In this document: in pieces, positions 281 to 64,000 of the stretch
Layout of the letters: each line of letters opens with the position of its first letter
Numbering within the stretch: the stretch's first letter is position 1
Source: Struthio camelus
Taxonomy: Eukaryota; Chordata; Aves; Struthioniformes; Struthionidae
DNA: 64,000 nucleotides
NCBI RefSeq assembly: GCF_040807025.1
Contig: NC_090942.1
Coordinates: forward strand, 41,742,911-41,806,910
Direction of reading: 5' to 3'
Notes under the pieces: generated by a model
Databases searched by the model: none
Seen by the model: the letters and a program-made list of their open reading frames with translations, nothing else
What the model was told of the DNA's origin: nothing
Program-made: the position numbers and the translations under genes

Positions 281-354
281 ATGGGCTGCGTGGCGGCGGC
301 GGCGGGGGGCTGTGCCGCTGGCTGCCGCAGGAGCGTCAGTAGCGTCTCCTCCCG
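281..354 (+). pseudogene. THAP2: THAP2 exon 1 relic
   Basis: ATG at 281 opens a frame beginning MGCVAAAAGGCAAGC. After a GC the next 14 codons align one for one with human THAP2 residues ending at Arg24, with many single-base codon differences. A GT at 355-356 follows CG, so splicing here would need an exon 2 starting with G, which matches the phase of the exon 2 relic. Human THAP2 has Cys5-x4-Cys10 as the first two zinc ligands. Here the cysteines are spaced x7 because the GCG run is expanded. The alignment is suggestive and not conclusive in such GC-rich sequence. Confidence 0.5.
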
Positions 355-1305
355 GTACTGTGCGGGGCAGCGGCAAGCACGGCGCTCCCGGGGCAGAGGG
401 CAGGGACTCCTCCCGGAGCGCTGAGGCGTGGGCGCCCCTTTCCCCCAGGCTCTGGCGCTCGCTGTAGCGCGGGGGAGGATGTCCACGGCCCTCTCTCCTG
501 CAGTGGGGAGCGTGTCCTGCTGCCCCCCAAATTGCTCACAGGTTTCTAAGGAAGGAAAAGCAGGTGGTGTCGTATCTGTCCCCAGCAGTTAGGCAGGTGT
601 CGTTAAATTGCTTGCTCCCTCCCAGTGGCTGAAATGCTGCTGTTGTAGAGGAAGGTTTCTGGCCTGTTACTGTGCAGAAGCTCAGATCAGCCTAATGGCA
701 TGGGAATGGAAAGTGAGCATCTGAGAGGGTAAAGCTAGGAGGAAAAACTCCCTTAGAACGGTATCATTTATTTTTATTGGATTTCTCTTAAGTTTGAGCA
801 CCCTGATGCCATCTCTCTCGGCATATCAGGAGTCCCACCTCCTGCCAGGGTGTTGTCAGGAGAGCAGTGATGGCATCCTTTGGCAGGAGGAGAAATCTTG
901 TTTTAAATAAGGCCTTCAGCTTTTGTAATTCAAACTGGTGTCTCATGGAAAAGTCACATGTCTTGACTTTTAGAAGTTCTAGCTCTGTTTCTGAGCATTT
1001 CTTCACAATGAGCGTGTGTGCTAAATGTCTTCACAGGCTTGCCAAATTCCTGAAACTTGGAGAAGGCTGCTGCCGTTTTGTGCTTTTTTGTAGAGTAAAT
1101 GGTGAAGGATTTATTCAGCAATAACGTGCTTCTTTCACTTTATTTCACTCTAGTTAGAATTCTCAACACAGGTTGTTTTGTTCATATCTCTTGTCACAGA
1201 ACCATCATGCTTCTTCCTGTTTATGGAAGCACTTGCACCAAAAATAAAATTCAGTATCATATGCTATGTTATTTCAAGTTTTTGTTTTCCTTCTTTTTCT
1301 CACGG

Positions 1306-1487
1306 GTGTCCTTTAGAACAAACAAGAAAAGAATGGATATACTTTGCAAAGTGCAAACATTTTATGCCAAACAAGCATTTATTTGCTCAAAACACTTTGC
1401 ATCTTCTTCTTCTGGCCTAACTGAGCAAACAAGATGATTTAGAATAGATGCTGTTCCAGTGACTTTTGACTTCATATAAAACTCGGG
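1306..1487 (+). pseudogene. THAP2: THAP2 exon 2 relic (zinc-finger exon), broken
   Basis: From 1307 the frame reads CPLEQTRKEW, matching human FPLDPKRRKEW with one codon missing. It runs to MPNKH at about 1378. The match then continues in another frame from about 1381 as ICSKHFASSSSGLTEQTR, a TGA stop at 1435-1437, then FRIDAVPVTFDFI and a TAA at 1477-1479. A good donor (GTAAGT) remains at 1488. The polypyrimidine tract before the exon is intact, but the expected AG is GG at 1304-1305, a single A-to-G change. Conservation of the KEW, CSKH and AVP boxes makes the identity firm. Confidence 0.88.
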
Positions 1488-1549
1488 GTAAGTTAATGGA
1501 ACGTGTACGTCGTATACTAAATTCTTCTGCATTTCTTCTATTTCAAGCA

Positions 1550-1798
1550 GAACGTGCCAATTCTATTAAAATGTACATGGAAGAATGAAGCAAATGAAAT
1601 GTTTGCTTTTATTTTGATAATCATCCATGATGTCACGGTAGTGTCCTGTCATGTGTCAGCGCTTCTGTTTAGATGGATGTTGCCTCTAGAAATTATGCTT
1701 AACAGGTGGCTCATGCCAACTAAACACCTCACATTACTAAGGACATCCACGAAGGGCTGGCAGATAAGACAGAACTTTCTGAGTATTTCCTGAAGCAG
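1550..1798 (+). pseudogene. THAP2: Probable THAP2 C-terminal exon relic
   Basis: A polypyrimidine tract ending in AG (about 1535-1549) is followed by sequence with scattered THAP2 matches in changing frames. One segment around 1670 resembles the RRWIKATCLVKN region but contains a stop. Another (1763-1798) reads DKTELSEYFLKQ and resembles human DKTLLSLNLKQ near the C-terminus. The single open frame through this region is not the THAP2 frame. Heavily decayed and only moderately supported. Confidence 0.4.
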
Positions 1799-3564
1799 AA
1801 GCTGGAGGTCGGGCAGGGTGTCGAAAACAGTACTAGATGTTTTTGTTTAGGCTGCTGTCCCAAGGCCTGTGTCTGAAATCTGATCAGCTGTAGTTATAAG
1901 CAAGCCTCAAGATCACTACACCTAAACTGCAGAAACTTCCCTTCCAATAGATGCTTATTTACTTGGGCATTCAGAGCTTTGCATATATATAATTTCAGTT
2001 TTGTTTGTACAGTTATGTTAATTTCTAAGCGTCTTTGCACACTGGTAGGATGTGAATGTCATCATCTTTCAAAGTGAAAAGGAAAGCTTATAAAACTCTT
2101 AGGTGTTGGAGAGAAGCAGCAGTACTATGTTAACTGTGAAGTTAACCTGATCTACGTGTTCCTTTATATTCAATTCACTGGTTCTGTATGGTTGCCCAGA
2201 GTTCATCCAACAAGTGCCCTGAAGTTAGGTGATGCTATGTCATCTATATTACGGATTTCTAGCCCAGAAGTACTTAACCATTTACAAAAGTACAGTTTCT
2301 GAGAATCTTTTAAGTGTTTTGGAGGTCTTGTGCTATCATCCGGATGTTTTATTTCAGTCATTTGATACTGCCGGCTTTTTCCTCTAGTCCAGTGTTATCA
2401 GGCAAGCAATGTCGTTATGTTTGAACTCTGAGGAAGAAGAAGATTCATCAACTGAATTCATTAGTGCTGATAAATAAGGGAATTGACAGAGTTAAATTCT
2501 TCCCTGAAAAGTGTGTAAAATGGCTTGTGTAAACAGAGTGCGTTGATCTGATGTGTTTGGTACCGACGCGTTTGTAAAGTCCGTGAACGTTTGAAAAGTT
2601 GGGAAAGGGCTGCTACTCAACAGAAAAAATAAGAAACTTCCATATTTCTCCCATAGGTAATAGATGAGGTTTCATTGCGGATACCATAAGTCACTTTGTA
2701 ACTTTAAAACTAAAAGGCCAAAGTAAAGAAATTTCATCTTGGCTGTATTTGACTTTATGCCTTTAAAAGACATCTCAGATTGCTGCTGGAGCAGAGGTTT
2801 TTGCGTTAAACGCCGAATGTCTTTTCAGCAAAGTGCAATGGATTAAGAAAATGTATATCTTTTGAACTGGAATGTAAACTCTGATTTGTTTTTGATCACG
2901 TGTTCCCTAAGTATTGTCTGCACCTCTAGACATGGGCAAAAAAGTATCGCAGAAATAGTGTATCTGTTTGTGAAAAATGTTACTTGAGTTACTGACAAAA
3001 AAGTATATCTGCAGCTACGATTGACTGAATTGAAAGATATCTCCATGAGCTCTTCATGAGACTAAATAGCAAAGATCACTGGTGATGTTTACATACGTAG
3101 TGTAGCTAGTGCAACTAAGACTCATTTACATATTTTACAAATCTGAATTACGACAGCTAGTGCAGCAAGCATAATCTTGAGTTTTCTGTTAAAATTTTAA
3201 ATGTCTCTGACATAAGAAAGTATCATATTCTCATGTACATAAGCAAAATGCCTTGACATGGTTAAATTTTGAGCCAGTTGCCCAACTTCAAATACAGTCC
3301 ATGTCTGAAGTTACCTAGCTATGATAGACTTAGTTTTGTCCTGGCATTGGAAAGAAGCATACGAAAAGTGATATCCCCTTGGTCAGTGTGAAGACGCAGG
3401 TAAATGAAGATTACTGCTTCCTTCTCCCACTTCCTCGCTGATGAGATATTTGTTTCTTTATTGTTAGACTCTAAACTCTTTGCAATTGAAAGATCCTTGC
3501 TTAACAAAATAGGAGCAGGTGTAAGCTATATTATCTGACTAACCTCTAAAGCAAAGTATAGAAA

Positions 3565-3700
3565 TAGGCTTTGGAGCACAGACTGGAACCCAGGACTCCC
3601 TCTTCCAGCATAACCAACGGAAAGCCCCAGTACCCAACAGCAGAGTTCAGGACTCCATACTGAGAGCCAGACACCTACCTTTTAAGTACTGAGGGATGGA
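3565..3700. repeat. Possible ancient repeat fragment
   Basis: The phrase GGAACCCAGGACTCCC and the surrounding sequence resemble segments seen in old amniote interspersed repeats. The match is short and diverged, so the family cannot be named from the sequence alone. Confidence 0.2.
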
Positions 3701-4966
3701 AAAGGCCAGGATTTGATCTGTGTCCCAAGCTGCTTATCCAAAACCAAAAATTAATAGTGGAATTAGTGGTCTCCAATGACATCTTTGCTTTAAGTGATCT
3801 ATGCCTCATTTCTGGTCAAGAAAATATGTTTTAAAAAAATCTGTTTCTCAGTGCTTGAGACAAAAATTAGTAGTGGGTTTACCACGTAAATTAAACAGTT
3901 ACAAGTAAAATAGAATCTTGTTTTTCAGAAACATAATCTCAGTTGTAAGGAATGGGCCACATTTTGGAAAATGAAAGATGCTGTCTTTCAGTACTATAAC
4001 ATCTAACTGAGGCTAATTATGGACTATTTTTGTTCTTTCACCGCTTTGTAAGCGTTAATTACAATTGCCTGATACCAATAGAAATAAAACTGAATCAAAC
4101 CAAATAAATTAATTCATTTTGCATTAAATTGACTACATAAACGATACACACAGATTATGCATGTATTACTAGTTAATGCTTATTCATATTGTCTGTTTTC
4201 TCAACTGAAACTTATAGCAGGTTGAACTATAACAACTTGTATATGACCCTACGCTAAACCTTTCTAGAACTAAGGGACTTGTATGCCTCTTACTTTCGTT
4301 TGTCCTGGCACTCAAGTGATTAGCTGTGATCTTAAGTATTGAGGACTCTATGTTAATAATGAAATTTGCCATTTCTGCCGAAGTTTTAGTACCTTCAACC
4401 AACCAGCTTCTAGTAGTGTCCCATATGTTAGAGAACTTTTCGTTACTAGTTATCTTTAGGAGCTCGGATCTGAATGTTATCTAGTGGAACTCTAAGATCA
4501 GTTTTCAGGAGGGGGGGGGGAAAAAAAAGCTTTTCTGTGTGATAGTATTGCCTCTGGAAGAGTTCTGGGGTTCCTTAACTGGAAGGGAGAAATCTAAAGA
4601 TCTTTTGTCAAAGGCTTTAGGGTTTGAATTTCTAGGCAGTATCTGCAGATACTTTGCTCAGAAAGACTGGAATGATTTTTAGCTTGCCTAGGCTTTACAA
4701 CTAAATCAGTAGCTGACATAAGAAAAATTAAACACATAAGAGTTCGCATAGTCGATCAGACTCACAGGTGGGAGGCTCAAATAGTTAATGTAAAAGCAGT
4801 TTCAAGACTGTTGGGCTGAAGTCTCAAACAGAAAAATGCAAAATATATTTTAAAAAATCTACCGAAATAATCAAGGATGTTAAAAGTATTCACCTTTTAT
4901 TTATGTCTTAGGATTTCTCCTCAGAGGATTTTGCTTGAATTCAAGTCTTTTTCCTTTCTGCGTTCC

Positions 4967-4992
4967 TATTATCCAATGTTTATTGGATAATA
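4967..4992. repeat. Perfect inverted repeat, 11-bp stem and 4-nt loop
   Basis: Arms TATTATCCAAT and ATTGGATAATA flank GTTT. Each arm carries a CCAAT/ATTGG pentamer. No gene or promoter context is apparent. Confidence 0.7.
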
Positions 4993-7900
4993 AAGAAAAA
5001 ATATCTAATGTGGCAAGACTTGGCACTATAAGATAACCTCCTAGAATCCTGTTGTTATGGTGATGTCCTAGACTTCGCAAAACTGAAGTAGCTCAGATCT
5101 GTGCAGAACACCAAGTTTCATTTATTTTTGTTATGATGATGCTAGAGAATAAATACAACCTCTTTTCACAGATTAAGAATGCATCTAATTTTTTGCATAG
5201 TCAGTCAAAAATACAGTCTTTGCTGAGATAAAAACTATGGTACCTGAGAGTGTTTTGGGCACTCTACAACTTCAGTACCAATTTATGACACTGGGTGGAT
5301 CTCTGAAGTCATAAGAACAAGAGAATAAATCTTTTGACACCGTCTTGGCATGAGAACAGTGGGCTGCGCTCCATCCTGTTTGTCAGCTTCTTGATTTCTC
5401 CATTCTTGATCTGCCTCATGACAAGATGATTTGCTGTGGTGGCACTTTACTCTTTGTGACTGAAAGAGCGTGAATAATTTATCAAGGCAGAGCAGCAGAA
5501 TACACAAATATTCCTTCTGATCAGATACTTCAGCTGTTGAAAATATTGGGAATCTGCAATTATTTGCCATTAGGACTTAGGCTCATCCTGCTTTTGAATT
5601 ACTTTTTCTGCACCAGGTCTACTGAATCTGGACTGAACAGAAGTCTTGAAAGAAGGTAAGGAGCATTTCTGCGTAACTTTTGAGTGCACATGATGATAGC
5701 CACCTTTTCTAGCTAAACATGCCTTCCTTACTCTGTAGTTTTGTTTTTCCAAGGAAGTCTTCACGTTTCTCACATAATCATCCAGCTTCTAAAGTGAAGA
5801 AATCTTCAGCTCCTTGGCAGCGTTTAAAGTTAGATGTGCAGCTGTTTGTCCTGGAAAAAACAGGCCTAAAGTGCTGCATTAATAAAACCAGAAGTGTTGT
5901 ATTTGAATAAGTAAAGTATTTAGTGATGCAAAAATTGTGCACTATTAAAAGCATATCTCTGGAAAACCAGCTTGTTGGCCACAGAGAGTTTGCTGTTTTC
6001 ATCTATATGCCAAATGTTGTTAAATCTCTGGTGCATTTAACAAGTGAATGATACTCAAATAGTATTTATTTGAAGAGAAATATTAATGTGGTTTAACAGT
6101 GAACTCTAAACAGCTCTCCAGATACAATGTAACATACAATTTTTCACATAGAGCCTTAAAAATACATATTTACAGTCTACTGCAAATCTAAGAATGATAT
6201 AGTTTTGAACTTACATTATGAACTTTCTATCTTTATAATAATGCTGCGGTAGATATAAGAAAAATAATATCCTTTGCAAAGATGTCACACACCAGTGCGG
6301 TCTGTAGTAGGTTTTTAACAAGCTACTATTAATGTGTAGGGTCCTCTGTGTCCTGAGACCAAATTAATCCAAGGCTTCTAGAATTGATGAAATGTGTGGA
6401 AGGTTCCATACTGCTGCAAACCTGAATTAAGGTACGCTCCTCAGCTAGTAATTCCCTCAAGAACTTAACTGTGAAAGAAACCGTAAAGTAATAGAGATAA
6501 GCATTGAAGCATGGTTTTGTCATTTATTCTATTACAGAATCCAGAGACTCTGGTTAGGGCCCGCTGCATGTTTGACAAATGTTTAATAAAGTGTGTATGT
6601 GAAAGAACTGGCAGATCATCTGGTTTTATGTTGTTCTTTATTCAATTTCCCATGTGGCCCTGAACAAGACATTTACTAATATTATTTCCCTCCCTTAAGC
6701 TTGCCAAAATGTAATGTTTGTGAAGTTTTTTAACCTCTTATGATGGAAGTGCTATAGAAATGCAAAGTATTTGTTCAAAGAGAAATTCAGATTGCTTTTG
6801 ATACTTCATTTTCTGCTAACACCAACTTTTGGTAACCTAAAAAAGTGCTTGGAAGGTGATTTAAGAGCAATTTTACATGCTTTACTAGATTTTAAATGAT
6901 GGATTATAAATTTAAACTAAAAATATATAACTTCAGAAAGATTTGAAAGCTATTTTTCTGTACTTAACTTGTTAGCCCTGAATGTAGTACATATGCAGTA
7001 ACTTCTGTTCTGCCTCTAATCTTAATCGGCTGTAACAAATACAAATGAAGACCACGTTAAATAATGAATGGAGTGAAGCAATGACTACTTTCTTTCTTCT
7101 ATCAGAACTACCAGGAACATGTCAGTATTCATCGTATGGTTCAACTGAAATGAATGACTTTACCACTAGAAATACGAATTGTATCACTTTCATCCCAAAG
7201 CAGTCCAAATTTCAATGACTTACGCAACCAAAGCAATATGAACTAGCAGGGACAGTGCCTTAGTCATCTGTTCTTTGACATCTGTCTTCTCTGTTTATCA
7301 GTATGATAAAGGCTGACTTTGTAGCTCATACAGCCCATTCTTCCTCTGGTTTAAAGGAGATATCTCTACAAGGCAGAGATAACCCAAAACCCAGTCGTTT
7401 TGTGCTTTACCACTGTGAAAACATTTGATTCTAATAAAAGAAATACTACTTCTCATGATTCTTTCTCAAAAGCAATTAAAAAAATTGTCAAATGGAAATT
7501 TAGTAACAAACAGCAAAAATGTAGAGACAGGAAGATAAGTAGGGTCAATCTCTCCTTTAACGACAGATACAAATCTTTCCACAAAACACCGTTTCACATT
7601 GCAAGCCTGCTTATAAAATAATAATTAGTGAGGAAGACACATCAGTTTGACTGTGTTAACAGCATCAGCCTTGAGTTTTGGGGTCAGAGCTGCCCATTGT
7701 TTTAATACACAACATCTTCACTGAGTTGAGTGGTATTACATGAGTGTACAGCCATAAAGGGTTTCCCCCCTTTTTGTTCAGCAGCAGTCATCCATCCCAG
7801 AGCTCATGTGTGTCTCTGTTTTATTACAAAAGCATCCCAGCCTACTTGACGTGGAAAGGGCAATTAGAGGACTACATTCACTATAGCTTAAAGCAACTGA

Positions 7901-10900
7901 AATAATGTTGAAAAAAGGAGTAGGAGAAGGAGACAGGAAGTCATGTTCTCCCTGGACCCTTAGCAAGTAAAGTGCTACCACCTGTTGATTATACTGGCAA
8001 TGCATTGTATAAGATTAGTGCTGTTTTATTTCAGACGCAGATAAAGCGATGACAAGCAGCTGCTTGAAAAGTCCTAGGTAAAAGCTATTCACTTAGACAC
8101 TGCATGTTGGTACTTTAGCCACTGTTTAAGGAAGGTAGAGTTGACCATCCTGTTAAGGAGATTATTTCTGAAATGTAAGTTTATATATTTCCCTGTTGAT
8201 CTTCGTCTTCCAGTGGCTTGCAAGCTCGTGTACTTTTTTAACCCTCCAGGGTGAAACATAAATATAACAAATAGTTGGACTGGACAGCCTAGGCTTCTCT
8301 ACCAGGAAAAAATGTTGAGGAATTTTACAATTGTTTTTTTCCCCCTTTGGAAAGTGTTGGTGTGCTAAAGTCAGATCATAATAGTTTTGGTTAATTTTTT
8401 ATAGGGAAGCTCCTAGAATCAGGATGGAATGTGGACAAAACTCATGTAATAGAACATCCCTTAGATGTTCCTTAGATCATCCCTTAGGACAGCCAGTACT
8501 CTTATGTCAGTTAAAAATAGTAAACTCAATTTAATCCTTGTTCTGCCCTGTCCTTTAAAGGCTAGTGAAGACCAGTAAACCTTGGTCTTACACGTTTCCA
8601 ATGATTTCCAAGCCATTAAATCATTTGGAAGTGAAGGCAACTTCTTCTTGTTGTTGAAACTTACATGTCTCCAGCCAATAATGCATTTTCAGTTTTACCA
8701 AGGTAAACATAAAATCGCTTTCCAAGTTCAGTTCATTTGATACTGCTGACAAAAAGACTAAAAAGAGAGGTTTCTTCTGCTTTCATTTAAGTTTGAAAAA
8801 CGGTGTTGCGCTATGTTTGGGCAACCATTTTGTGTATTTCTTTGCCTTAGATTCTTTTTTTACCTGAAACCATCAATTTTCTTTATATTATATAAAGATC
8901 CAGCACACCAGTGTCATAGCACCCATCTGCCCCGCCTCTGGACTGCATTTCCCAGGATTCTCCCCTTAAAAGACTGCAGCTTACATCCTCACAGATATTC
9001 AAACACCCTCTTCCAACTGAAGTCAATAGCAGCGTGGCAAACCTGTAAGAATTCAGGCCTAACCCCAATAATCTATATAACAGTGTTTTTCATTAAGAAC
9101 ATATTCTGTATCTAGATCTAGGTTGGGTCATCCCCCCCTCCCCTGCTATCTAACAAGTAATTTTAACAACAGAAAAAATTTATGCATCTTAAATCTTGAG
9201 CGTTATTTACCAGTAGGTTCGCCTCCCCAATTCTGCTAAGCACTATACAGACAAATACGGCATTATTCTTTTGCTAACATCTTAAGTCTAAGAGCCTGGT
9301 CTACGTATAAAAATCTAAGTATATGTGCAGAGTTCCATCAGTTCTACACAGTCTGCCTAAACAGACGAAACTGATTTGAATCATTAGGTATGACAAGTTA
9401 CACCCACTGGTGCTAAGACAGTAGAAGGATGTATGTTTTCACAGGCTAAAAATGTATGTATTTTAATGATTCTGAATCATTTCAAAGTTATCTAAAAGCC
9501 AGACATTCCTGTTCCCTTGCATAGCTATTATCCTGTCAACACAGGCTATGCTCTACATAGCAAGATGATTCAGAACAGTATTGCAGTTTTGGAGCCAGTC
9601 CTGTGGTTGTTCTTATTTACCACATGCTGTTGTTCATTTCCGAAAGCAATTTTGGTGTGCAGGAGATAATTCCTCTCGGAGGAACCTAATCTGTTCCCCC
9701 CCCAAATGCCCTCCAACCCCTAAGGGTTGTGACCCCCCCAGGCGGACCATGCCATCCCAAAGACCTGCAGCATGAACCTAACACATGTCAGCGGGAGGCT
9801 TTCAAGCGGGGGAGAGCTCTCAAACACCTGAAGTCATCTGATGCTCTACAGAGAGCCAAAAAGAGGCACAGTGAAAGGGCTTTCCTAGGAAAGTTTTTGT
9901 ACATGAGTAACGGCAATTTGGGCACCCCCCTTCCAGAGGGACCCGGAGAAAAGCATGCAGACTATCTTCCTTTCAGAAAGTTTCAATCTACAAGTGTAGT
10001 AGAGGTTTGCAGCGCTGAAGTTATATCCCGTACAAAATAAACTCCCCAGATCAAATATACTGGAGATACGAGAAGCCTGAACACGCAACTGCTTTCAAAC
10101 TATTGATCCTTTCCTATTTCACTGAGTTACTTGCTAAAGTAGACAGAGACATAGTAGAAAGTAGGTTAAATAATAAATTTCTACCATTAGAAAAAGGCAA
10201 TTTCGTGGATCATGTGGATATAGAAAGTTACCCTGGAATATAAAACTGTCTCTGGGCAGATCATGCCTTAGTAAAGTCTGCCCAACTGAGGAAATGTGAG
10301 AAAAAAAGGAGAAGAGCGCTACCTCCAGAAGTACCCAGAATCCTCCTCAAAGATCAGCTAGTTTCCTCTAATCAAAGGGACTGAAATAAATTCATCACTA
10401 CCATCAACTGTAAGCTTACAGACAATTAAAAATCCTCTCAATAGCATTTGTCAGTTTGGAAGCATTCATTATATTTGTAATGTATAAAATGAAAGCGTAA
10501 AAAATCTTTTGTTGCTTACAGTTCCCAGATCATCAGTGATCAAGTCAGGGAACAGGACTGAACCAGCAAAGCATTTTATCATAAACCAGTGGGACTAACA
10601 TGGTTAGAGGCAGCTATTTGCAGAAGTTTGCTAAACTGTGATAATAAATTGATAGAGAATCACGGGGTCTTTCCCTACATCACACCTTCTAACAGTCATT
10701 TCTATTAGTACTAAAATGTGTTTGCAGGCTTTAAAAAAACCTCAATCCTTGCTCTGGTTGGAGATGGAGTGGGGGAGAAAGTGATTCTGTCTGGGGAAAG
10801 TTCATTATTGGGCAACATACCAAGTATACAAGATGCTTAACTTGAAATAAAATTCATACTTGTTAAAATTTGGCGTGCCCAGTGAAATACCAAATCAATT

Positions 10901-13900
10901 TTGAAAGCTAAAATAATATTTTGGGTGCTCTGGAAAGGTCAAAACATTTTAGGATAAGGAATACATCTAATTGGTCACATTATCCTTGGATGAACTGAAT
11001 CAACACAAAGCTAAAGCCTATGAACAAATAGTTAATAATAACTGCTTTTTAAAGCAATGTTCTGTGTTCTACTTTGTGCAGTGAGACAGTTTGATATTTA
11101 TTGCAATCTTCACCATTTCTGGTTTTATAATGCCCCATCCAACTCCTGCCAGGAATGGTTTTTCTATAGTGTTATCACTCACATTTTGACTGCCTCAGAA
11201 ATGTTACGAATTCATCTGCACAGCAACTTCTGTAGTATGGAAATGATTGCTTTCAATTGGGTCTAAATTTGCACAGGTGACTACTAATTTGGGGTGTTCT
11301 TTTTGAGACAAATATTCAACTGCAGTACTATGCTTTTCCTTCTGTTTTCTGTAGACTATATAATGACATTATCAGCACGAAATTTTACTGTCTTACTATT
11401 TTGTATTTTCTACAAGCGTGAATACTATTTAAGGGCCTTGCAAGGAGCGGTACTTAGAAGAATGTTTCCAGCTTGTTAATCTCATGTATTTAACAGTATA
11501 TTGTCTTTAATCAGTTTTTGGGTCTCGAAAAGACAAGTGTAACAAAGAAGAATAGAGACATTAACATTTTTATTTTTATACATTTCAAGTTTTACCATTC
11601 AGAATGCACTCTATCAAACATAAAATCTATAAAGCCAACTGATTAAAAGGAGCACTATTCCCTTAAGTAACCAAAAAAAATATTGAAATTCTTGTGGAGT
11701 GTTACAAGGAAAACAGAGCATGGAAGTTCACGTTCAATTATGATGTTTTTTGCTGTAATAGCTAAGTAAAAGAAAATAATTCAAATTAATGCTCTTAAAC
11801 CATGAAGATCATCCATGAATTGTTTGCTTTATTGTCATATTAATTCTAAGAGAAACAATACGTCTCTCCAATCCCAACTTGAATAAAATAGTCTGTTCAG
11901 CTGTTAAAAACCAGCGCTCAGCTGCCTTTATCTTTCTTCTTTTCTCTGCTATAAACAATATTTATTCTCCTGTAAAAAAGGATTACAGAGGCAGGTAAAA
12001 TGGATTACACCATGCTCAGATCAACATTTCCTATTAATTTTATAGCACTAAGGAAAAAAAATAGCATGATGGAAACAGAACCTTCATGAATATGAATGGT
12101 GTTTTAAGTAGTAAAGAGAAATGCAGAATACTATCTGAGACATACAAAAAAGAGGCAGAAGAACAAAGCAGAACAGAAAGTCTACTTCTAAGATCTTCAG
12201 GAAAATGTGGAAATTTTATGATATCTTATTACTAATCTACTAAATTCTCCTATATTTCTAAGAAGAAAATGAATGTTAAGAGTTATTTTTAATTATTGTA
12301 CTATATACAGCAACATGTTATTATCTTCAGTTTGTCATGCTGCCTTTACTCATCTCACATTCCTTTCTCCTATTAAATCATCATGTTTATTTTTACTTCT
12401 AGACTCTGCGCTGGTCTTGCTTTGCATCATATAGATCTGCGTTCAAGGTAAGAAGGAACTCTTGATCTAAATACCTGGGCTACTTATAATTTCTTGAACA
12501 GATTTTTTTAGATTTAAACTCATCACATTTTTCTTATTTCAAAGATGTATTTATAGAAAATGTAGGGAGAATGCTTTCAGATCCGTTTGTCTCAAGGAAC
12601 ACGTACTTGCCTTTTTTTTAATTATCAAGCTCATTAGCTACATCAGTTTGAATAAGAATATGTTTTCTTAAGTGTAAGTAAAAATTGTTCACTATAATGT
12701 ATTAAATGTGCATAATACTGTCCTTACTGATTCAAGATGGTATTTTGAGTATGTGAATTCTAAATTCACGATATTCAACATCTAGATGGACATTTTAAAA
12801 TATTTTAATTTTTGCCAATTAAAAGTGTTGCAATTTTTTTTCATTGCAGGGCTTAGTGAAAACAAAGGCAACACTTTGAAAAAAGGAATTTAAATGTAGT
12901 ATTTGGGCCAATGCTAGAAACTGCTGTAGGCTCATTTCTTTTGAAAATGTAGCTACTTCTTTCAGTTTCTGAATATAGAAAGTAGTCTTCCTTTCTTTGT
13001 CATTTTCTAATCTAGTTGTAACATTTAATGTGTATTAAGCAAGTTATTTCTTGATCTGGTATGCAGGAAAACATGTTGGGTTTACATAAAAGAAAACACT
13101 AGAGGAGGAAGAAGCCCCACCTAACAAAAGTCTCAGAGTTGAAGGAGTTAAAGAGAATTAAAAGAGACAGAGTTAGAGTCAACATTCATGCAATGATTGT
13201 TATAGTGTCCATGATTAGAATCACCTTTGTAACGTAAGGCACTGTGAGCAATATTCTGTTTTACTTCACCTGCTAACAATCGAACTGCAAACAGCAGCAG
13301 CATCTATGGCTTTAAGCCAAGATGCAAAATCTGTGGATAAGCCAGTGTAATAGAGTCGTATCAGGCATGTCGCTCTAAATCTAGGGACACGTTACTTAAC
13401 ACATTTATGGGATTTATGAGAGAAGGTGAAGGGTCCTTGAGCGCTCCCCAAACCTGCCCCCTCTTAGCACCAGCTTGTGTGTTATTATTAATCATAGTCA
13501 CCTGGTTGTACAGTCCCACCATTATCAACCTGGGCTGTATGATTCCTGCAAGAACCTTTGTTCCTCCACCAGAAATTCTAGTATCTTTCTGTGTTACAGT
13601 TTAGAAAACATACAAGTAAGTGATAAATAAAATAAAGCAACATTGCAGTTAAGTGTCTATTCCAAATAATAAATTTATGGGAATTGGTTACAGCTAAAAA
13701 AAGCAGTTGAACAACCAGTCTAAGTACAGTTGATCTTGTTCTGCTTTAAAAGTTTGGTTACCTAGACTTTGGCAGGAGCATCTAAGCTATGTTGTTATCA
13801 GTGTTACCCTTCAAAAGGTGCCCTGTGCTTATAAGGCAGCACACCTACTCAGATTTTTAGATTTCAAATCCAGATCTCAGATTGCAGCTTAATGAAAATT

Positions 13901-15650
13901 TTGGAGGTAAGAAGGAGGACAAAATATACCATAATCAGTTCATCTGCATCAGTATTAATGTTTTTGTGATCTCTACTTCAGAGAAACTTCTAGCGTTTCC
14001 AGTTTTATAATCAATAAATGCAGCAGAAAATAAAGCCTGTCCAACCTTGTCTAAGGCACATGGCCCAAGAATTTTTTTTTTGGTCTAGAGCCCATACGCT
14101 CTAAACACTTACACAAGTGCTTAACTTTAACCTAGGAATGGGCCTACTATCTTCAGCTAAAACAAAGTAAATCTCTGCAGAATATGGTCGCTGGTTTAGA
14201 CAAAATCTAAAAAAAAAAAGCACTGAATGATAACTGAATTTTTCTTTCACAACAACACAAAATACATCTAAGTTTCTGCTGCAAAGGAAGCTAGAACCTG
14301 GATTGTGCTATACATCCTGTTAGAAACCGCAGATGCTTAATGAAAGAGAACAGAACATCCCCCAAAGATGAATCAGATGCCAGTATGAGCCAGACAGAGT
14401 CTTAAATTCCAGAAGGAAACTTATCATCTCTTACACAAAGATTATACACTAGAATTTGTAAGTAGTTTTAAGTACTCCTATTCCTGAAAGATCACTAGAG
14501 TCTATATCAAAATGTGCCACTTGTTTGGAAAACCTCTTTTACTCCTCTTTTACCTATTAGTCTCTCACAGAATAAATACATAAATAAATCTGTTCTTCAA
14601 GTGTATGGAAAGAAGCACACCTGAGGCTATTGATGACCATAAAGTCACTCATCTGTAGAAGTACTTGCAAAATTACGTTATTTATTATATATTCCAGAGA
14701 ACAAATATTGAATACACATATGTTAGTTCAAAATTATGTTGTGTGATGCTTACAATCTTGTTTATTTTATAGGTGGCTGCCCTAAAACGAAGGGAGGGTT
14801 TTTGAAAAGTTGTGGAGCTTCACGTTTCTCTGCTTGGTTGACAAAGCCTCTCGTGCGTGGAAGTGGATGTTGTGGAGTCCTTCTAATAACTTGTATTAGC
14901 TTCTTTATTGATAGTCAAGTGTTGTGCAAGTTATTTCTGGCAGGCCCTCAGAAAAGCTACTAGGCAGGTTTGGTCTGTTTTCATCTCAAGCTAATTTTGG
15001 GAAATGTTTCAAGTGTCTTTCTTTTAGTGTTAACGAATTAAGAGTTTCAGACCCCATCCAAATACTGGTCTGTATCACTACTTATCAAACGATCTCGTAA
15101 TCTTATAGTGGTGTCATTCTTTGTTTTTATTCCACAAACAGGCAAATCAGATATATATTTAACACGTTTCTTCCTTTGGCACGTAGACTATTTGTGGTTA
15201 TTTAAGCATACCACGTCTAGAACTAGGAATTTCTGCAGCGGGTTGCAGGGCGGCCCTCTGTGAGGAGCCGCAGGCAGAGGCCATGTAGGCAGGAGCTCCC
15301 CAGCGGCCCGGGCACGGGCACAGGCGCAGGGCTCGCCGCAGCGGAGGCACGCTCATGGAGCCAGGTGTTGCGCAGGACAGAGCTAGGCCGCCCTGAGGAG
15401 GATTTGGGGCCAGGGAGGCCTCTGGCCATGGGCACGGGTCTTTTAACCCCGAACCGAGGTACGGGATGGCATCACGAGTTTAGCGGGCCACGTTTCGGTC
15501 TGGCTCTTTCTCGAGAGAGCTGTGAGGAGAGAGCCGGGTGCAGGGTGCTGCCCTCTACACACGCCACAGCTGGCAGAAGAGGCTGCAGCCCGTGTCCCCG
15601 GGGAGGCCCAACGCCTTGTGGAGGCGCCACCCAGGGCAGAGGACAGGCAG

Positions 15651-15672
15651 CCCGCCCGCCCGCCCGCCCGCC
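15651..15672 (+). repeat. (CCCG)n tetranucleotide repeat
   Basis: About five tandem CCCG units within the TMEM19 CpG island, a likely site of length polymorphism. Confidence 0.8.
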
Positions 15673-16059
15673 TCCACAGGCCGCTGAGGGGACGCGGGCT
15701 CGGGGCGGAGGGCCGTGGCCCCCCGGCAATGGCAGTTGCCGAGAGGGCGTCAGCGGGTGACGACGGGGCGCGCAGAAAGCGCCGCTGCCCGCGCAACCCC
15801 CGCGCCCGGCCGTTGGCGAGAGTCGCAGAGGGACAGGTAGTCTCCGCGGAGGGGAAACCCGCGCAGGCGCGGCGAGACAGGGCGGCGTCTCGGCGGGCAA
15901 GCAGGGCTCGCGGGAGGGGCGCCGAGCCGAGGAGCTGCGGCACGGGGCGGGGCGGGGCCCGGCCGGGAGCGGCGGCGGCCGCCGCCCGCCCGCCCGTATT
16001 GCGGGCAGGGTTGAGCCGGGCCGCCTCACCCGCGGGCGGAGACGCAGGCGGCGGCGGCC

Positions 16060-16125
16060 GACGCATGCGCGGAGCCGAGGCCGTGCGGCGAGATGGGCGG
16101 CCGCGGCGGAGGGCTGGGGGAGCAG
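16060..16125 (+). other. TMEM19: Putative TMEM19 non-coding exon 1 (3' part)
   Basis: A strong donor, GAGCAG|GTGGGT, follows 16125. A clear acceptor, a C-rich tract ending GCAG at 16431-16434, opens the first coding exon. Joining them gives a 5' UTR with a short uORF starting at 16093. The 5' end of this exon cannot be fixed from sequence, and other GT sites in the island could be used. Confidence 0.45.
16061..16072 (+). promoter_or_regulatory. NRF1-like site
   Basis: ACGCATGCGCGG matches the palindromic GCGCATGCGC core of NRF1 sites with one change. It lies about 55 bp before the proposed donor of the non-coding first exon, so it is close to the likely transcription start. Confidence 0.5.
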
Positions 16126-16434
16126 GTGGGTGGCGGGCTCGGGCCGGGCGGCGGGGAGGGAGGTCGGGCGAGGTGGGCAGCGGAGGGCGCGCCGAGCGGG
16201 CGGCGGGGTCCTGTCGGCAGCCCGTGCGGCCCCTCGCCGCCCCGCGGCCCGGCGCCCGGCGGGGAAAGGCGGAGCGTCTCGGGGCGGGAAGCGGCGCCCT
16301 GGGGACTCTTCGCGGCCCCCGCCCGGCCCGAGGCCTCGGGGCGAGCGGCGGCCGCCGGCAGCCACCTCCCGCACCCCGGGCCGTGTCGCTGATGCCGTGC
16401 GCCTTGTGCTTTCCCTCTCCTCCCCCCCCCGCAG

Positions 16435-28913
<12,479 letters not shown>

Positions 28914-37465: not shown

Positions 37466-37758
37466 GGGGCCAGACTCTTTTCCGTGGTGCCCTCTGACAG
37501 GATGAGCGGCAACGGGCACAAACTGAAACACGGAAAGCTCCAGCTGAACATAAGCGAAAACTTTTTGCCTGTGAGGGTGACTGAGCACGGGAACAGGTTG
37601 CCCAGAGAGGTCGTGGAGCCTCCATCCTCGGAGATATTCAAAAGCCTTCTGGACAGAGTCCTGGGCAATGTGCTCTAGGTGAGCGTGCTAGCGCAGGGGG
37701 GTTGGACTAGGTGATTTCCAGAGGTCCCTTCCAACCTCAACCGTTCTGTGATTCTGTG
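37466..37758 (+). mobile_element. CR1 LINE, 5'-truncated 3' tail, sense orientation
   Basis: Contains the CR1 ORF2 C-terminal frame (NRLPREVVEPPSSEIF to LGNVL, stop at 37676-37678) and the 3' UTR GGTTGGACTAGGTGATTTCC. It ends in two copies of an octamer-like tail, TTCTGTGATTCTGTG, typical of CR1 3' ends. It starts abruptly at GGGGCCAGACTC. Almost identical to the inverted copy in TMEM19, which extends about 55 bp further toward the element's 5' end. Confidence 0.93.

Positions 37759-55278: not shown

Positions 55279-55333
<55 letters not shown>
55279..55333 (+). repeat. (CA)27 microsatellite
   Basis: 55 bp of uninterrupted CA dinucleotide running directly into an E-box (CACGTG) and preceded by a short TATATA stretch. 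About 450 bp upstream of the RAB21 start codon. Long pure CA runs are highly mutable. Confidence 0.98.
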
Positions 55334-55783: not shown

Positions 55784-55930
55784 ATGGCGGCGGGGGCCGG
55801 CGCGGCGGCCGGGGGCCGCAGCTTCTCCTTCAAGGTGGTGCTGCTCGGGGAGGGCTGTGTGGGGAAAACCTCCCTGGTGCTGCGCTACTGCGAGAACAAG
55901 TTCAACGACAAGCACATCACCACCCTGCAG
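55784..55930 (+). CDS. RAB21: RAB21 coding exon 1
   Basis: 49 codons ending HITTLQ with donor CAG|GTGCGG. It contains the P-loop and the effector threonine. The start context is GCGCGGATGG, with G at +4 but no purine at -3. Confidence 0.96.
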
Positions 55931-58900
55931 GTGCGGGCCGGGGCGCAGGGGGGGCTCTCGCGGCTGTTCCGCCTTCCCTCCCGCTGGGCACTGTCTAGGG
56001 TTGCTGGGCGGTGTCAGCCCACCTCTTCGTTGCTCTCTGGCGCCTTACCGGGCTGCCCCTGCCCTGCCGGTGCTTGTTTTGTCGAATGTTGCTCTGCGCT
56101 GGAGTCTCTCTCTCTGGTGTTTACCGTCTTGTTCACCGCTCTTCCGTGGCAGGAGCGACCACTGCCACTCTTGAAATGGTGGCTGCCCCCCAGCTGGCTG
56201 TGCTGAAAGCCAGCGCTGGGGTTCTTTTTCCCCCCCTCGGGTTTAAGCTTTCAGTGCTTAAATAACTCGTTTCTATTCTGAATACTAACCGTTTTTTCCA
56301 GTTATGTATATGAAGGCGTTCATTTGAATGTTGGGAGATGGAAGCGTGGTTTGAAAGTAGTGTTGTTATTGTACATCAGCAGTGGACTGATGACTAAGTA
56401 TTTCATATGTGTTCCATTTCTGATAATTATAGTCTTCCTAGCATTTCAGAGGCTAACACTTAAACTGTCTAAATACTAATCTTTGAAGAGAACAGCTTTC
56501 ACGAAATGACTTATGAAATCATGGTATATTTTTTCTGGTTTCATAACAGAAAAAATTCTTAAGACTTATTTGCTTGTCACTTTATCTACCTGGGTTTTGG
56601 AACTTGTTCTCAGTAATGCTGTCAGCTAACTTATAAACAACTGAAAAGTGTTATTCCACTTAAACATGTGACAGGATGTCAGCTTGAAAATAATGCTTGT
56701 TTCTTGCACTGCCTACTAGCCTAGTATGGCATATTTGCCATATTAAAAACAAAAGATTGAAAGCTGATGCTCACATGATTGTATGTGGTCTTAGAAAACA
56801 TGTTTTAAACTTTGCATCAGGAGTTGTACATAAGTTTGTGTTGTGTGCTGTATCTGCTCATTTAATCTTCTGTCTCCAATTATGCAGCGTATTTTTTTAG
56901 CAGTTGTGAACAGGTGCATGAAAGTGTGATTTTGGCACTGTAATGTCTACTGTTAATAATAAGTATTCTTTAAGTAAAGAAACAAATCCTGCCACCATGT
57001 GGGCCGCTGGTGAGTTTTTAAATTCTCTGCTGTGAAATACAGAATAAGTAGTAGCTGATGTCAAAAAGCCTCAAGGTAGTTGTGCACTACTTATGCACGC
57101 TTTGGGAAAGATCTTAGCAGGGCTGGGTAGCTCAGAAAAGTTTAATGGCGAAGCTTTCCCTTAGAACAAAGGGAATATTAGAGATGTACTCGAAAAAATA
57201 TGGTGAATGTTTCATTAACAAATACAGTTGCTTCATTTTTGCTATAAATAGTGAAGAAGAACATATTTTAAACTTTATTAGCATAATGTTCATATTCTGG
57301 TATTGGAAGGATCTGTTGATAGGCTTACTAGAAATGAGGCATAAGGTATGGTATTTCTGGCAGGTTAATTGTAGTTTTGATGGCCATAGAGGTAAATAAT
57401 ACTTCACTGTACTGAAGCAGTAACTAGTAATTTACGGGTATCAGAGGATACAGTTGTAATTTTCACCTGAGCTGTGGCATCGAGCCAACAAATTTTTAAG
57501 AATGTATTGAAATGCTGTATGTATTCTGATATCCCATGTAGAAATAGTAGGATTGAAAACTGCTTGTTCATTGAACGGTACCTCTGTTCTTAGTCATGCT
57601 GATTAAATCTTTAGTGCAAAACTTAAAATAGAGCTAAAAAGTGAGTTGGAATACAGAGCTATGTCACAGATGTCATAAAATGGAGCTTTAAATGACAAGT
57701 CAAAAATGCTGACAAAAAGCCTCTCTAAATGCTATGGCTTGGAAGCTTCTTTGTTTTGGACTATCTTGGGTGGCAAGAATTGTTTGTAAAGGAATGAAAA
57801 CACATACTGATACTTGAAATAGAAACTTTGTCTCTACTGCAGTTAGTCTTCTGGTTGCTACTTAAATGTTGATAGTGAAGTGATAATGCTGTTTTTAATT
57901 GATTGCCCTGTATTTTTCAATACATTTTGCTTTTCTGATTGTAAAATAGTGTCAGCTGCTGTTGAATGTTACTGTACTAAATGATAATACTTCAAAAGTG
58001 TATATTGTGGTTTTTGTTTTCCTGTATAGTAGGAGAAGAAAGATTTAGTAAGTCATAAGCACTTCCACTGGCGAGTTAAAACGTCCCTTAAATAAGCTAG
58101 GGAGAAACTAGAATATCTGATTAAGCAATGAAGTGCCGTTTTTTGCAAGACATCCTTTTTTAGATTATGGACTTAATCTGGTAAAGTGGTTTTGTTTCAT
58201 GGCTTCAGTTCAGGATATTTCAGCAAAGGATTTTTGTTCCAGTAAAGTCAAAATTAGGTAAATTCTTCGTTCCTGATTCAGCCGAGGAGCCACAGTGATG
58301 AGCCATATGAAGAGATCACCAGATAGTGGGACAAGCAGCTCTCATCCACAGTACTCTCCTTTAGAAAAAGGAAAGAAGCTTTGCATTGTGCTTTATCCCA
58401 GTATGATTACAACAACAAGCAGGATGGTTGGCCTATGGATTTCTGAAGAGTTAATTTAGTGATGCTGCCTGGTACTTCCTGAAGTGTAAGCCCTCTTATC
58501 TTGAGAGGAATGTGACTTATAGATGTCTGCCCTCTGAGCGGAGAGAGCAGAGGAATCCCTTGAATTGGTCAGTGTGAGTCTTTTTGCTAAAATGAATATC
58601 TGTACTTTTCCATCTGAATTCTAACACTTCAGTATTTTTTTTTAACTGTGAAGTTAATCTGCGTACATACAAATAGAATCCCCTACTGTGCTAGTAGCAC
58701 AGGAGTATTAGTGCAAGGGAGCTGCTCCCCTCCTCCCCACTAGCTAGACTAAAACAATGGATTGGAACTTCCTTATATAGATGGGAACCTCTTATATAGA
58801 GGTTAGGAGGCTGCTTGGACTTGTTGCTGTAGTTGTATTAGCTTGAAGTCATAAACTTAAGATTTCAAAGGACCTGCAAATTGAAACAAGGTAGCTGCCG

Positions 58901-61900
58901 AGTTGCTGCTTAGTTGAAAGAAAATGCCCAGAATAATGTGGAGAAGCTGATGCAGGAAAGCTAGATTCCCCTTCTTCCCTTTCCCCCTGCCCCCTCTCCC
59001 CTCCCCCTCCCCCCCCCAATATAACCTATATTGCCAGACCTTGTGGGCCAGTTAGAACTGGTTCCCATAGATCCAGGTGTTGAGGTCAGGGTTTTCATTT
59101 TAAAATGCTTCTCAGCTCTAAACTGATATCAAGTGGTATATGCAGAAATTACTTCAATAGTAAAGAAATCGACTCTCAAACTATCCCTTTTTATTTAAGG
59201 AGATGCTTTCTTTTGCTAAATTATGGGAGAAGAGTACAGCTTTCATGCTCTGATCTCTGAAATATACTGAGGACTACACAATTTCCAACATGAAAGTCAC
59301 TAATGGACACCAGTCATGCCATGCTGATCCTGATTGTTTTGGGGCACTTGCATAACCTGGGAAAGCTATCATGGGTGTGAGATAGCCTCCTTGTTCTGCT
59401 TTTTCCAGGTTAGTGCTATATGCAGTATTCTTATGCCTGGCTTGCCCCTGTGTCCAAGATAAAACAATCAAGGGGCAGATGGTAGAGAACTGCTTCCCTC
59501 CCTCCCTCCCCCCTGACTTTCAAGAGAATCATTTCCAACCAGATCTGCCTCTTGTTCCACTCAGGTTCTTTTATCCACTCTAACAGGGCCTAATGCACAC
59601 GTGGAACTGAATTCTTAAAAGTTAAGAAAGGATTTTCGACAGACTCATTAAGGGAATGGTATTTAGCTCCTATAATTGCATTATTCTTTTCCTCTAAGTG
59701 TATAAGTATTGTTCTGACTAGTCATACTACACGAATCAAAATACCAATAATAGCTTGCTCCAAAGAGCTGTATGAAATTGCTTGTCTTGGAATTAACTCT
59801 GGTCCCATAGGTTAGGTGGTGGTGTCCCCCTGCCCCAGCAAGAAGGAATTGCTATGGTAATGAAAATAGTATGGAAAGGAGTTACTGATTGTAAGGCAGA
59901 AGTCATGACTGACACTTGACCCTCTAGTGCTTGGTTGGTAAGCCTGCAGGAGTTTGGAACAAATGTTGAATCTTCTTCTGTGTGTTAATTACTTAATGCT
60001 GTCCAGACCTTATCACTTTCAACAGCTTTGATGTGCTTTGCCACTTACTACTTTCTAAACTGATTGGATGGGGAAACTCGCTACACCAGAACAGTAGTTA
60101 AGGCTCTTTCTTACACCTTGAACCCCCCAAAACTGTTGACGAAGCTTTTAATGAAAAAGCTGCGAGTCCTGCATTCACTGCATTAGCTTTTTGATTATCT
60201 CTAACCTTCAGAATGAAGAGTAGTAACCTTGGTCTTACATGAGACAAATGGAACTTCCCCTGGGGATCTTGGGGCTGGTGTTGGGGAGGAGGGAAGAATG
60301 CCATGCTTTCTCCTATGCGTATTTGTTGTCTTTGAAGTGTATGTGCCACTATGGCCATAAAATACATGAATTACTTACATGTAAGTATGCCAAACTTAGC
60401 CATACTTATTAATTCAAGAACCGAGCCTGCTAACAGTATTTTTTCAAATATATAAACACAATTAAAAGGGAAAGAAGCATTTTATCTATATGTAGTATTG
60501 ACTGTTTTGCACAGCATGTTCATAAAGCTTTCTGCTCAGTACTTGGTAACTGAAGTAGTCATAGTTAGATAACCGTGTTACAAACTTTTTATTAAGAAAG
60601 CTTTTCATGCAAGCTTACTTGTGATCCTCTTCATACTGATGCTATCTTTCCTTGTTTTGAGCTAGGGATCTAAGACTTTAGGCTAAACTTAAACAGTAAA
60701 AATTCATCAGGTTTTAATATGGAGAGCAAGTACAACAGCCCAACGCTAAATACCGTTGCCATGATCTCGTGTCAATTTTACGGTAGGTACTGAAAAGCTT
60801 ACTTGAATGTATGTGTCTTCTCAAGCTTTGGTATCTAGGAAAGCAAATGTTTTACTGTTAGTGCTAAAAGAACACTATTTCTATCAAGAGCAGTAGTGAC
60901 CTGAAGGACAGATGATATTTAAGCAAAACTTATATAGGGAGATAACTGTCTGACATACCATATACTGAGGTAGATTTAATGGCACAGTTGTCTTTACTGG
61001 GCCAATATCCAAAGCCGTGATTTTATAACTCTTTGAATACCGACTTCTGTGTTTTTAATATGAAAATGTTTCTGTGAAGATTTTCTCCACCCTTTGGCCC
61101 AGAGGTCCAAGAATGTGGTTCTCAAACACTTAAAGTTCTTACAGACTGAGTAGAGTTGACTTCCTTTGCTATGCTTAGTCTTAGACAGAAGCAAAAAAGC
61201 TCACAGAGCTCTTCCTTGAGATTTACAACAGATGTATGTAGTTCTGTAGTAAGTACATCAATAAAGTATTGGCAAGTAAGCTTGATTCAATGTGTTTAAC
61301 CCATACTTTTTGATAATATGGCCCCAATGTTGGTGAATTAGAAATTCTGAAGTCACTAAGCTTTTCATTTTTAAACTTGGATGTAGTAGAACAAATTAAT
61401 ATATGAAGAGTGGAGACTGATCAGATAGGTGATTCTGAAGGACAGCTAGCTAAAAGCTGTAAACTAGCTTCTATAGAATCTTTGATTTACCTGTAAACCA
61501 TTAAAGTTTTCCTCATGTTTAAGGCTTGCTACTGTGCTGTTGCATTTTTTTTTTTGTTTTAAGTCAGATAATGTGTTAATTATTTCTAACTTGCTGTCTG
61601 GAACTGTTTCTGAAGTTGATTTTTATGCCACCTCACTGTAGACTGAAGGGGTAGTGTTAGTGCTGCAGGTAGGTTGAATATAATGGCCACGATGACCAGT
61701 TCTGCTACTTGCTCTTGGAAAGAGGTTCTGGGTGTTTTCTTTTTTTTCTAGATCTATGGTCTGTCCTCTCTATATATCAGCTCTGTTATTTGTCTGACTT
61801 TATGGAATGCTTTGAGGGAAAGGGTACAACTTATTTCAAATAAGGAAAGAAAAAGACCTCTCTAAATCAATTCCTTACCTTATGTCATGCAAATGCCTGA

Positions 61901-63621
61901 GTTAATGTTAGGAAAGTAGCAGAAGAGCAGGATCTGCTCTAGCAGCTGAGTGTTGGATTGGCTTAACTGTAGCACAGTTCTCATTCTTGAGAGATGATTT
62001 CACAGTGGTTTAGGTTGATATTGAACTACTATGGTCTTCTGTGTGGGTATTGGTTGCTCGTGCAGTTACACAGCAAGCTGCTTCGGGCAGCTGATCTGGG
62101 CCACATACTTTTTCCGTCCACACATACATACACATGTGGCTCTCAGTTGGTTCAATGCCTGATCAGTGCTCAAGCAGAGAGCTCTTGTTGTGCTGCTGCA
62201 GTCTAGCCTAAAATGATCTGGGAGGAATGTATTATAAGATATCACTGAGACCTTGTTGATGTCCAAAAGCTAACTGAGGTGAAGCTGAAAGGCAAGCTGA
62301 GTATAACTTAGGAAAAAGATGAAAGTTAACCCTTGGCAAGTGAATTGACTAATGATATTAACCTGTTACTGCTAGACTTCAGCTTTTTAATGTATCAACT
62401 TTGTTAGAGCCTGCTTTAGTGTATTAAACTTGTATCCCTTTCCACTGAATTGTTCATCTAGTAACAGAGGTGATATTTGAAAATGTAGATTGTACAGGCT
62501 CTGAGAGGAACAGGCATCCTTTTGAGTTACTGAAATTAAGACTAAGCTTGCAATATACTCTGGTCCTGTAAAATGTCTTCAGAAGACAACTTAGAAGTTA
62601 ATCTAAGAATTTCATTATGCTTCTTTTGAGGCCTCTTATGTGCAGGTCAGTCCTGCCACTTACTTTTCTTTTGGGTGTGCACCTTTTTCTGTCAGGTACA
62701 GTTAACTGAGGAACATATTAAGCTTGCAGGAGCAGTACCAGAATGAAGAAGGTGACAGGGAGAATTGTGAGCTCATTTCCGAAAAACAAAGGAAAAAGAC
62801 AGACAAGGAAACTTCTTGCCAAATACTAGTGTTTTGAGACTTCTAGCTCTAAACTATTTTATTTTGTTCCAGTAACTTACTATGAGTGAGCTACTTGAGC
62901 AATTCCTCAACAGTTAAGGTGGATCCCGTCAACTTCATATACTCTAGTGAAAAGTCTAAGCTGAACTTGAAGCATATCAGTGTTTTGAATTCAGTCTCTT
63001 TCTGCACAGACTTCGTCTTATCCTTCCCAGATCATTCAGAACAACAAAGTGTAGGAAATGTTTGGCTTAAACCAAATTTCTTCAGAAAAGACTTCTGGCA
63101 AAAAGTAGTGCAATGGCTAACTGGCTTAGTATTGACCTAGCCTTCTGGCCTAAGGAGTATTTTGAGCCAAAAATGTTGGCGGCTGTTTATTGATTCTGGT
63201 GTGTTTATGGATAAATTAATTTGAAGTCAAATGAGGCTACTTTTGTATAAAACTGAACTCTAATCTCTCTTTACTTTATAGGCATCTTTTCTTACAAAGA
63301 AACTAAACATTGGTGGGAAAAGAGTAAACCTTGCAATATGGGTAAGTGTTCTTTCCTACTACTTCCCCTTCCCCCAGCGGACTATTTTCCTGAAAAAATA
63401 CTTACAGTTAATAGAACTTACATGTTTTGCACTTCTTAAAGTAAAATTTACAACCAATTGTAGTCTCTTGAATGCTTTATTTTTTTCTTAAATAAGTGTT
63501 TTAACCAATGCAGGATACAGCAGGTCAAGAAAGATTTCATGCATTGGGGCCGATCTACTACAGAGATTCTAATGGAGCTATTCTAGTATATGATATAACA
63601 GATGAAGACTCTTTTCAAAAG
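55784..63621 (+). CDS. RAB21: RAB21 small GTPase, first three coding exons (partial, 3' part outside window)
   Basis: Coding exons 55784-55930, 63282-63341 and 63514-63621 join in phase 0 to give the first 105 residues of about 220. Rab21 cycles between GDP and GTP on early endosomes and controls integrin and general endosomal traffic. Visible motifs are the P-loop GEGCVGKT (22-29), the switch I region with Thr47 just before the exon 1/2 junction, and the WDTAGQE switch II box (69-75) with the usual Gln. The alanine/glycine-rich N-terminus is about four residues shorter than human as I recall it. [10 protein letters not shown] and [20 protein letters not shown] are characteristic of RAB21. 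The second GTP-binding half (NKID), the switch-distal helices and the prenylated C-terminal cysteines must lie to the right. ATG 55784 is chosen because an in-frame TGA lies 24 nt upstream. Confidence 0.97.
55931..63281 (+). other. RAB21: RAB21 intron 1
   Basis: 7.35 kb with no other gene recognised. The first 300 bp are GC-rich and the rest AT-rich. It contains a C/T-rich tract at 58968-59018 and a CCCTCCCTCC stretch near 59500. Confidence 0.85.
58968..59018 (-). other. C-rich polypyrimidine tract (G-quadruplex potential on minus strand)
   Basis: About 50 bp composed almost only of C and T, with several runs of C4 to C9 in RAB21 intron 1. The complementary strand has multiple G runs separated by 1-3 bases. 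Confidence 0.6.
63282..63341 (+). CDS. RAB21: RAB21 coding exon 2
   Basis: Acceptor TTACTTTATAG, donor TGG|GTAAGT. 20 codons from ASFLTKK to LAIW, the strands between switch I and switch II. Confidence 0.96.
63342..63513 (+). other. RAB21: RAB21 intron 2
   Basis: Short 172-bp GT-AG intron separating the Trp and Asp codons of the WDTAGQ box. Confidence 0.9.
63514..63621 (+). CDS. RAB21: RAB21 coding exon 3
   Basis: Acceptor CCAATGCAG, donor AAG|GTACTA. 36 codons from DTAGQERF (switch II) to DEDSFQK. Confidence 0.96.
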
Positions 63622-64000
63622 GTACTATGACAGATTTCAGCTCTGCATAATGTAAACAGATTGAGAGCCAACCTGTGGTATGAACATGTAACTGGGAATC
63701 TTCTATTCTGGCAATAGCACCTCTGCTTAATTTGATCAAGTTATGGGATTGATATATGATCACATATGAAAATCTTAGTATTAGATCTGCAAATTTAGGC
63801 TGTGTGATGGAAGCATATGCCTTCTTGATATTTTTGAAGGCTGACTCTTTCAGTCTGCTCTAAATAACCTTGTTAGAACTTTATCTGCAGAATACCAGAG
63901 AACTACTTGTATGAGTTACCTGCAACAAGCTATAAACATAAACCAGTACTGTTGTGATAGTATGCAATACTGATCTTTAAGAGTAAAGTGATGTGGCCTT
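63622..64000 (+). other. RAB21: RAB21 intron 3 (partial)
   Basis: Begins with the GTACTA donor and runs off the right edge. No further RAB21 exon is visible. Confidence 0.85.

Follow-up and report, generated by a model that had tools for sequence, protein, structure and literature searches.

A decayed THAP2 remnant upstream of TMEM19 and RAB21 in Struthio camelus is probably a unitary pseudogene

THAP2 belongs to the THAP family of zinc-finger proteins, and little is known about its role. The cysteine spacing in this family falls within the range Cx2-4C, and the Trp, Pro and AVP motif of the THAP domain are needed for DNA binding. As a class, unitary losses of genes are well known from birds, and the unitary pseudogenes of other bird genes have decayed at the syntenic site with their introns, just as seen at the locus described here. 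The literature searched, represented mostly by titles and the beginnings of abstracts, yielded no report of a loss of THAP2 in birds; such a report may be in print elsewhere, and THAP2 may already be missing from annotation databases for birds. In the portions of text available, PMC10225710 deals with THAP2 in mouse skin and mentions chicken only as an antibody, PMC12563233 presents THAP2 as a microRNA target in zebrafish, PMC5596316 concerns Xenopus and PMC4684624 concerns THAP9. The text match in the accessible part of PMC6190866 proved to be the author name Thapa only, with no THAP2.

The window, i.e., the whole stretch of 64,000 nucleotides that was analysed, contains a locus whose closest described relative is human THAP2. 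It resembles the human gene in 26 of the 49 exon 2 residues compared, in the inferred phase of the border between exons 1 and 2 and in the gene order THAP2-TMEM19-RAB21 on one strand. It differs from human THAP2 in a lost acceptor, a frameshift, one or two stops and a last exon that is hardly recognisable. THAP1 belongs to the same domain family and shares 17 of the 49 residues. Decay of THAP2 in place, as proposed in the original prediction, is well supported, because an intron-bearing remnant is present at the syntenic site and its coding frame has failed. The features are compiled in Table 1. Human THAP2, TMEM19 and RAB21 proteins were the queries in tblastn and in frameshift-aware alignments; the phmmer and Pfam results for exon 2 are independent of these query sequences.

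Table 1 Features of the THAP2 locus and its downstream neighbours in the window
Feature	Position	Strand	Basis
Probable THAP2 exon 1 remnant, open; reads MGCVAAAAGGCAAGCRRSVSSVSSR when the first exon 2 base is added	281-354	+	
Exon 1 donor GTACTG, intact	355-360	+	sequence read
Lost intron 1 acceptor, GG replacing AG	1304-1305	+	border and phase inferred from human THAP2 protein
Decayed THAP2 exon 2, holding most of the zinc-finger THAP domain	1306-1487	+	phmmer, Pfam, tblastn
Frameshift, net 4 bases lost	1379-1383	+	frameshift-aware alignment
TGA stop in frame, where human QTRRL has its second Arg	1435-1437	+	CSKHF frame, alignment
TAA stop in frame, perhaps the result of a deletion near 1472/1473	1477-1479	+	CSKHF frame
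Exon 2 donor GTAAGT, intact consensus	1488-1493	+	sequence read
Candidate THAP2 last exon remnant, human residues 151-223	10283-10532	+	frameshift-aware alignment
TMEM19, six exon matches	16475-28910	+	tblastn, 64-88% per piece, human protein as query
RAB21, three exon matches	55823-63624	+	tblastn, human protein as query

The motifs RKEW, CSKHF, LTEQTR and DAVPVTFDF, on which the identity of exon 2 had originally been founded, were located by frame reading at 1310-1473, and the identification was borne out with THAP2 as the best match. After translation of exon 2 through one frameshift, with X standing for the stop, phmmer matched the THAP domain of human THAP2 (PDB 2d8r) with 61.1 bits and an E-value of 5.5e-16, whereas the match to the THAP1 chains was far weaker (2ko0, 25.1 bits, E-value 1.6e-4; 2jtg, 21.3 bits, E-value 0.0027). 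These three were the only sequences matched up to an E-value of 10, the comparison with THAP paralogues covering PDB sequences. With the frameshift bridged, exon 2 reached 30.6 bits against the Pfam THAP model (cut-off 23.9), and the single-frame pieces stayed below this cut-off, the first half giving no match and the second half 21.4 bits. One frame of exon 2 translates as CPLEQTRKEWIYFAKCKHFMPNKHLF; another, the one containing CSKHF, reads ICSKHFASSSSGLTEQTR, a stop, FRIDAVPVTFDFI and a second stop. In a tblastn search of the window, human THAP2 matched exon 2 in two pieces in two frames with an E-value of 5.45e-11. The frameshift-aware alignment of the exon 2 region to the human protein scored 126, compared with a mean of 25.2, a standard deviation of 3.7 and a maximum of 47 for dinucleotide shuffles, none of which did as well (0 of 200, and 0 of 100 in a separate run). 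Among the residues common to THAP1 and THAP2, 15 of 24 are kept in exon 2 and nine are changed; where the two human proteins differ, the THAP2 state is kept at 11 of 25 positions. Judged by its sequence, exon 2 is a THAP2 remnant, with THAP2 its best match among the THAP proteins compared.

Three lesions in exon 2 and at its border are secure. At the border, the last two bases of exon 1 (CG, ending at 354) and the G at 1306 together make up an Arg codon, in phase as expected, and the following TGT CCT TTA encodes C-P-L where human THAP2 has F-P-L. The phase thus agrees with the loss of an AG exactly at the GG dinucleotide. The second lesion is the net loss of four bases: CAT (1376-1378) and TGC (1384-1386) are separated by five bases at a site where human THAP2 codes for T-F-L. 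The third is the TGA. The TAA is doubtful, since translation from 1473 to the donor gives HIKLG, compared with HIKS in human THAP2, and thereby points to a further deletion of about seven bases. The TAA is perhaps not an independent change, and the sequence suggests that this deletion is the true lesion and the stop its consequence. The original count of at least four independent lesions was therefore slightly overstated: acceptor, frameshift and TGA stand, and the TAA may derive from the deletion. A cryptic acceptor AG is present at 1315-1316, 11 bases past the lost one, and would restore the CSKHF frame up to the TGA at 1437. With either acceptor, none of the three frames of this strand holds the C2CH zinc ligands, the Trp and the AVP motif in one open frame. 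There is no complete THAP domain in any of these frames because the frameshift and the TGA split the ligands, Trp and AVP from one another.

Exon 1 is marginal by similarity, with 29 of 500 shuffles scoring as well in one run and 4 of 100 in the other. Joined to exon 2, it lifted the score against the Pfam THAP model by 3.8 bits, from 30.6 to 34.4. The altered cysteine spacing that had originally been pointed out is indeed there, Cx3C as opposed to Cx4C in human THAP2. It is no lesion in itself, because it falls inside the range of the family. After the second cysteine the exon has 10 residues, compared with 14 in human. Its position, its donor, its phase and the gain in the Pfam score make it probable that this open stretch is exon 1 of THAP2; it lies 951 bases upstream of exon 2 in matching phase.

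The last exon had been placed in fragments at 1500-1798, and this placement turned out to be wrong: between 1487 and 2500 the score was 29, at the level of the null mean (29.7), and since 36 of 60 shuffles did as well, a last exon in this interval was rejected. When the whole interval to TMEM19 (1488-16400) was searched, the best match, scoring 51, ended at 10532. This alignment is colinear with human THAP2 nearly to the C-terminus and holds three frameshifts, an insertion of six codons and one stop. Null means were 40.2 and 40.0, with 0 of 60 and 7 of 260 shuffles as good, and the controls gave 47 for the reversed protein, 42 for the minus strand and 38 and 41 for two other stretches of the window. 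Because of the reversed protein and the 7 of 260 shuffles, the claim is kept modest: the alignment is suggestive of a remnant of the THAP2 last exon and is not secure. With this candidate as last exon, intron 2 could be as long as about 8.8 kb. A search of 1488-10290 for human residues 85-150, with which the last exon begins, found nothing, 49 of 60 shuffles being as good. Two open frames that overlap, 116 and 74 residues long, are situated at 9690-10240, just 5' of the candidate. None of the three open frames scanned in this region (8762-9112, 9690-10037 and 10019-10240) had a Pfam match up to an E-value of 1.

Downstream, the remnant is followed on the same strand by TMEM19 and RAB21, the order of the human genes THAP2, TMEM19 and RAB21. 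The upstream neighbour, ZFC3H1 in human, lies outside the window, and synteny was assessed on the downstream side. The TMEM19 pieces are free of stops over 332 codons, and Pfam DUF92 was found in four of the five pieces scanned out of six, one of the four falling below the cut-off. Pfam Ras was found in both RAB21 pieces scanned out of three. Altogether, 426 of 427 neighbour codons checked contain no stop, the exception being a TAG just before a RAB21 exon. The tetrapod neighbours of tph2 listed in PMC6470480 are caps2, lgr5, rab21, tbc1d15, tmem19, tspan8 and zfc3h1, and the accessible part of that paper mentions no THAP gene among them. Upstream of the RAB21 exon matches, at 55279-55333, CA is repeated perfectly 27.5 times. 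Two CR1-like pieces in opposite orientation, at 25858-25900 (minus) and 37690-37750 (plus), share the 3' end GAGGTCCCTTCCAACCTCAACCGTTCTGTGATTCTG, near 25858 and 37731, and fit a bird origin of the DNA; they were found with a looser pattern and read by eye, and the strict pattern, which requires two consecutive 8-base units, had no matches. Rfam gave no matches at gathering score over the whole window.

The failure of the coding sequence could be real at this locus while a working THAP2, duplicated or relocated, survives elsewhere in the genome. We consider this unlikely, as the remnant occupies with its intron the syntenic site, which is the place expected of the parental copy, and the next-best tblastn match of THAP2 within the window had an E-value of only 1.4. 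It is likewise unlikely that the locus still yields a predicted peptide of 64 residues by splicing of the exon 1 donor at 355 to the cryptic acceptor. The frame for such a peptide is open, the pyrimidine tract and both donors are kept, and C11, C15, C48 and H51 would provide four possible zinc ligands. However, the peptide would end at the TGA, 50 bases ahead of the end of exon 2, it would be devoid of the Trp of RKEW, the Pro of FPL and the AVP motif, and its cysteine-to-cysteine distance of x32 is below the usual range. It is hardly credible, even with one assembly at hand, that errors of assembly or sequencing, or a rare allele carried by one bird, account for the lesions, as these comprise substitutions and a net loss of four bases outside long homopolymers, the open neighbouring exons make a poor assembly unlikely, and changes in 9 of the 24 residues common to THAP1 and THAP2 are unexpected from errors or a recent allele. 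A retrocopy is ruled out, in full agreement with the original prediction that introns and synteny are kept, because a separate exon 1 with matching phase precedes exon 2 across an intron.

The locus is very probably a unitary pseudogene of THAP2. The acceptor, the frameshift and the TGA are disabling, and introns and synteny are kept, though exon 1 is weak by similarity. According to this reading, the coding sequence of THAP2 would have decayed in a gene that kept its place, introns, exon 1 and neighbours; the intron 1 acceptor would have gone, the THAP domain would have become frame-shifted and stopped ahead of the AVP motif, and the last exon would have become barely recognisable, for which reasons no complete THAP domain is expected from the locus. 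Some points count against the pseudogene reading. Exon 1 and the last exon are each weak alone, the cryptic acceptor would give a product of 64 residues, the upstream neighbour lies beyond the window, and 15 of the 24 residues common to THAP1 and THAP2 are still kept, which indicates that a large part of the sequence evolved under constraint, at least up to the loss. The locus would then make no working protein, the genome would hold no other copy of THAP2 and the loss would be fixed; Struthio camelus has probably lost THAP2.

If all nine changed residues were altered after the loss, and 2.25 non-synonymous sites are counted per codon, the divergence amounts to about 0.2 substitutions per site, which is an upper bound. 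With about 2e-9 changes per site each year as the neutral rate, the loss would be at most roughly 100 million years old, with a wide error. It is possible, if rather doubtful, that an early loss of THAP2 in birds, by one lesion of acceptor or frame common to them, left a whole clade without a conserved amniote THAP factor, the exon 1 promoter perhaps persisting with a non-coding or short-peptide transcript that uses the cryptic acceptor.

Until its spread is known, the probable loss of THAP2 is one more case of a familiar class in birds and ordinary in kind. If a bird does lack THAP2, nature has provided a knockout of the gene; its dispensability, and what changed alongside the loss, could be read from the timing of the loss among birds.
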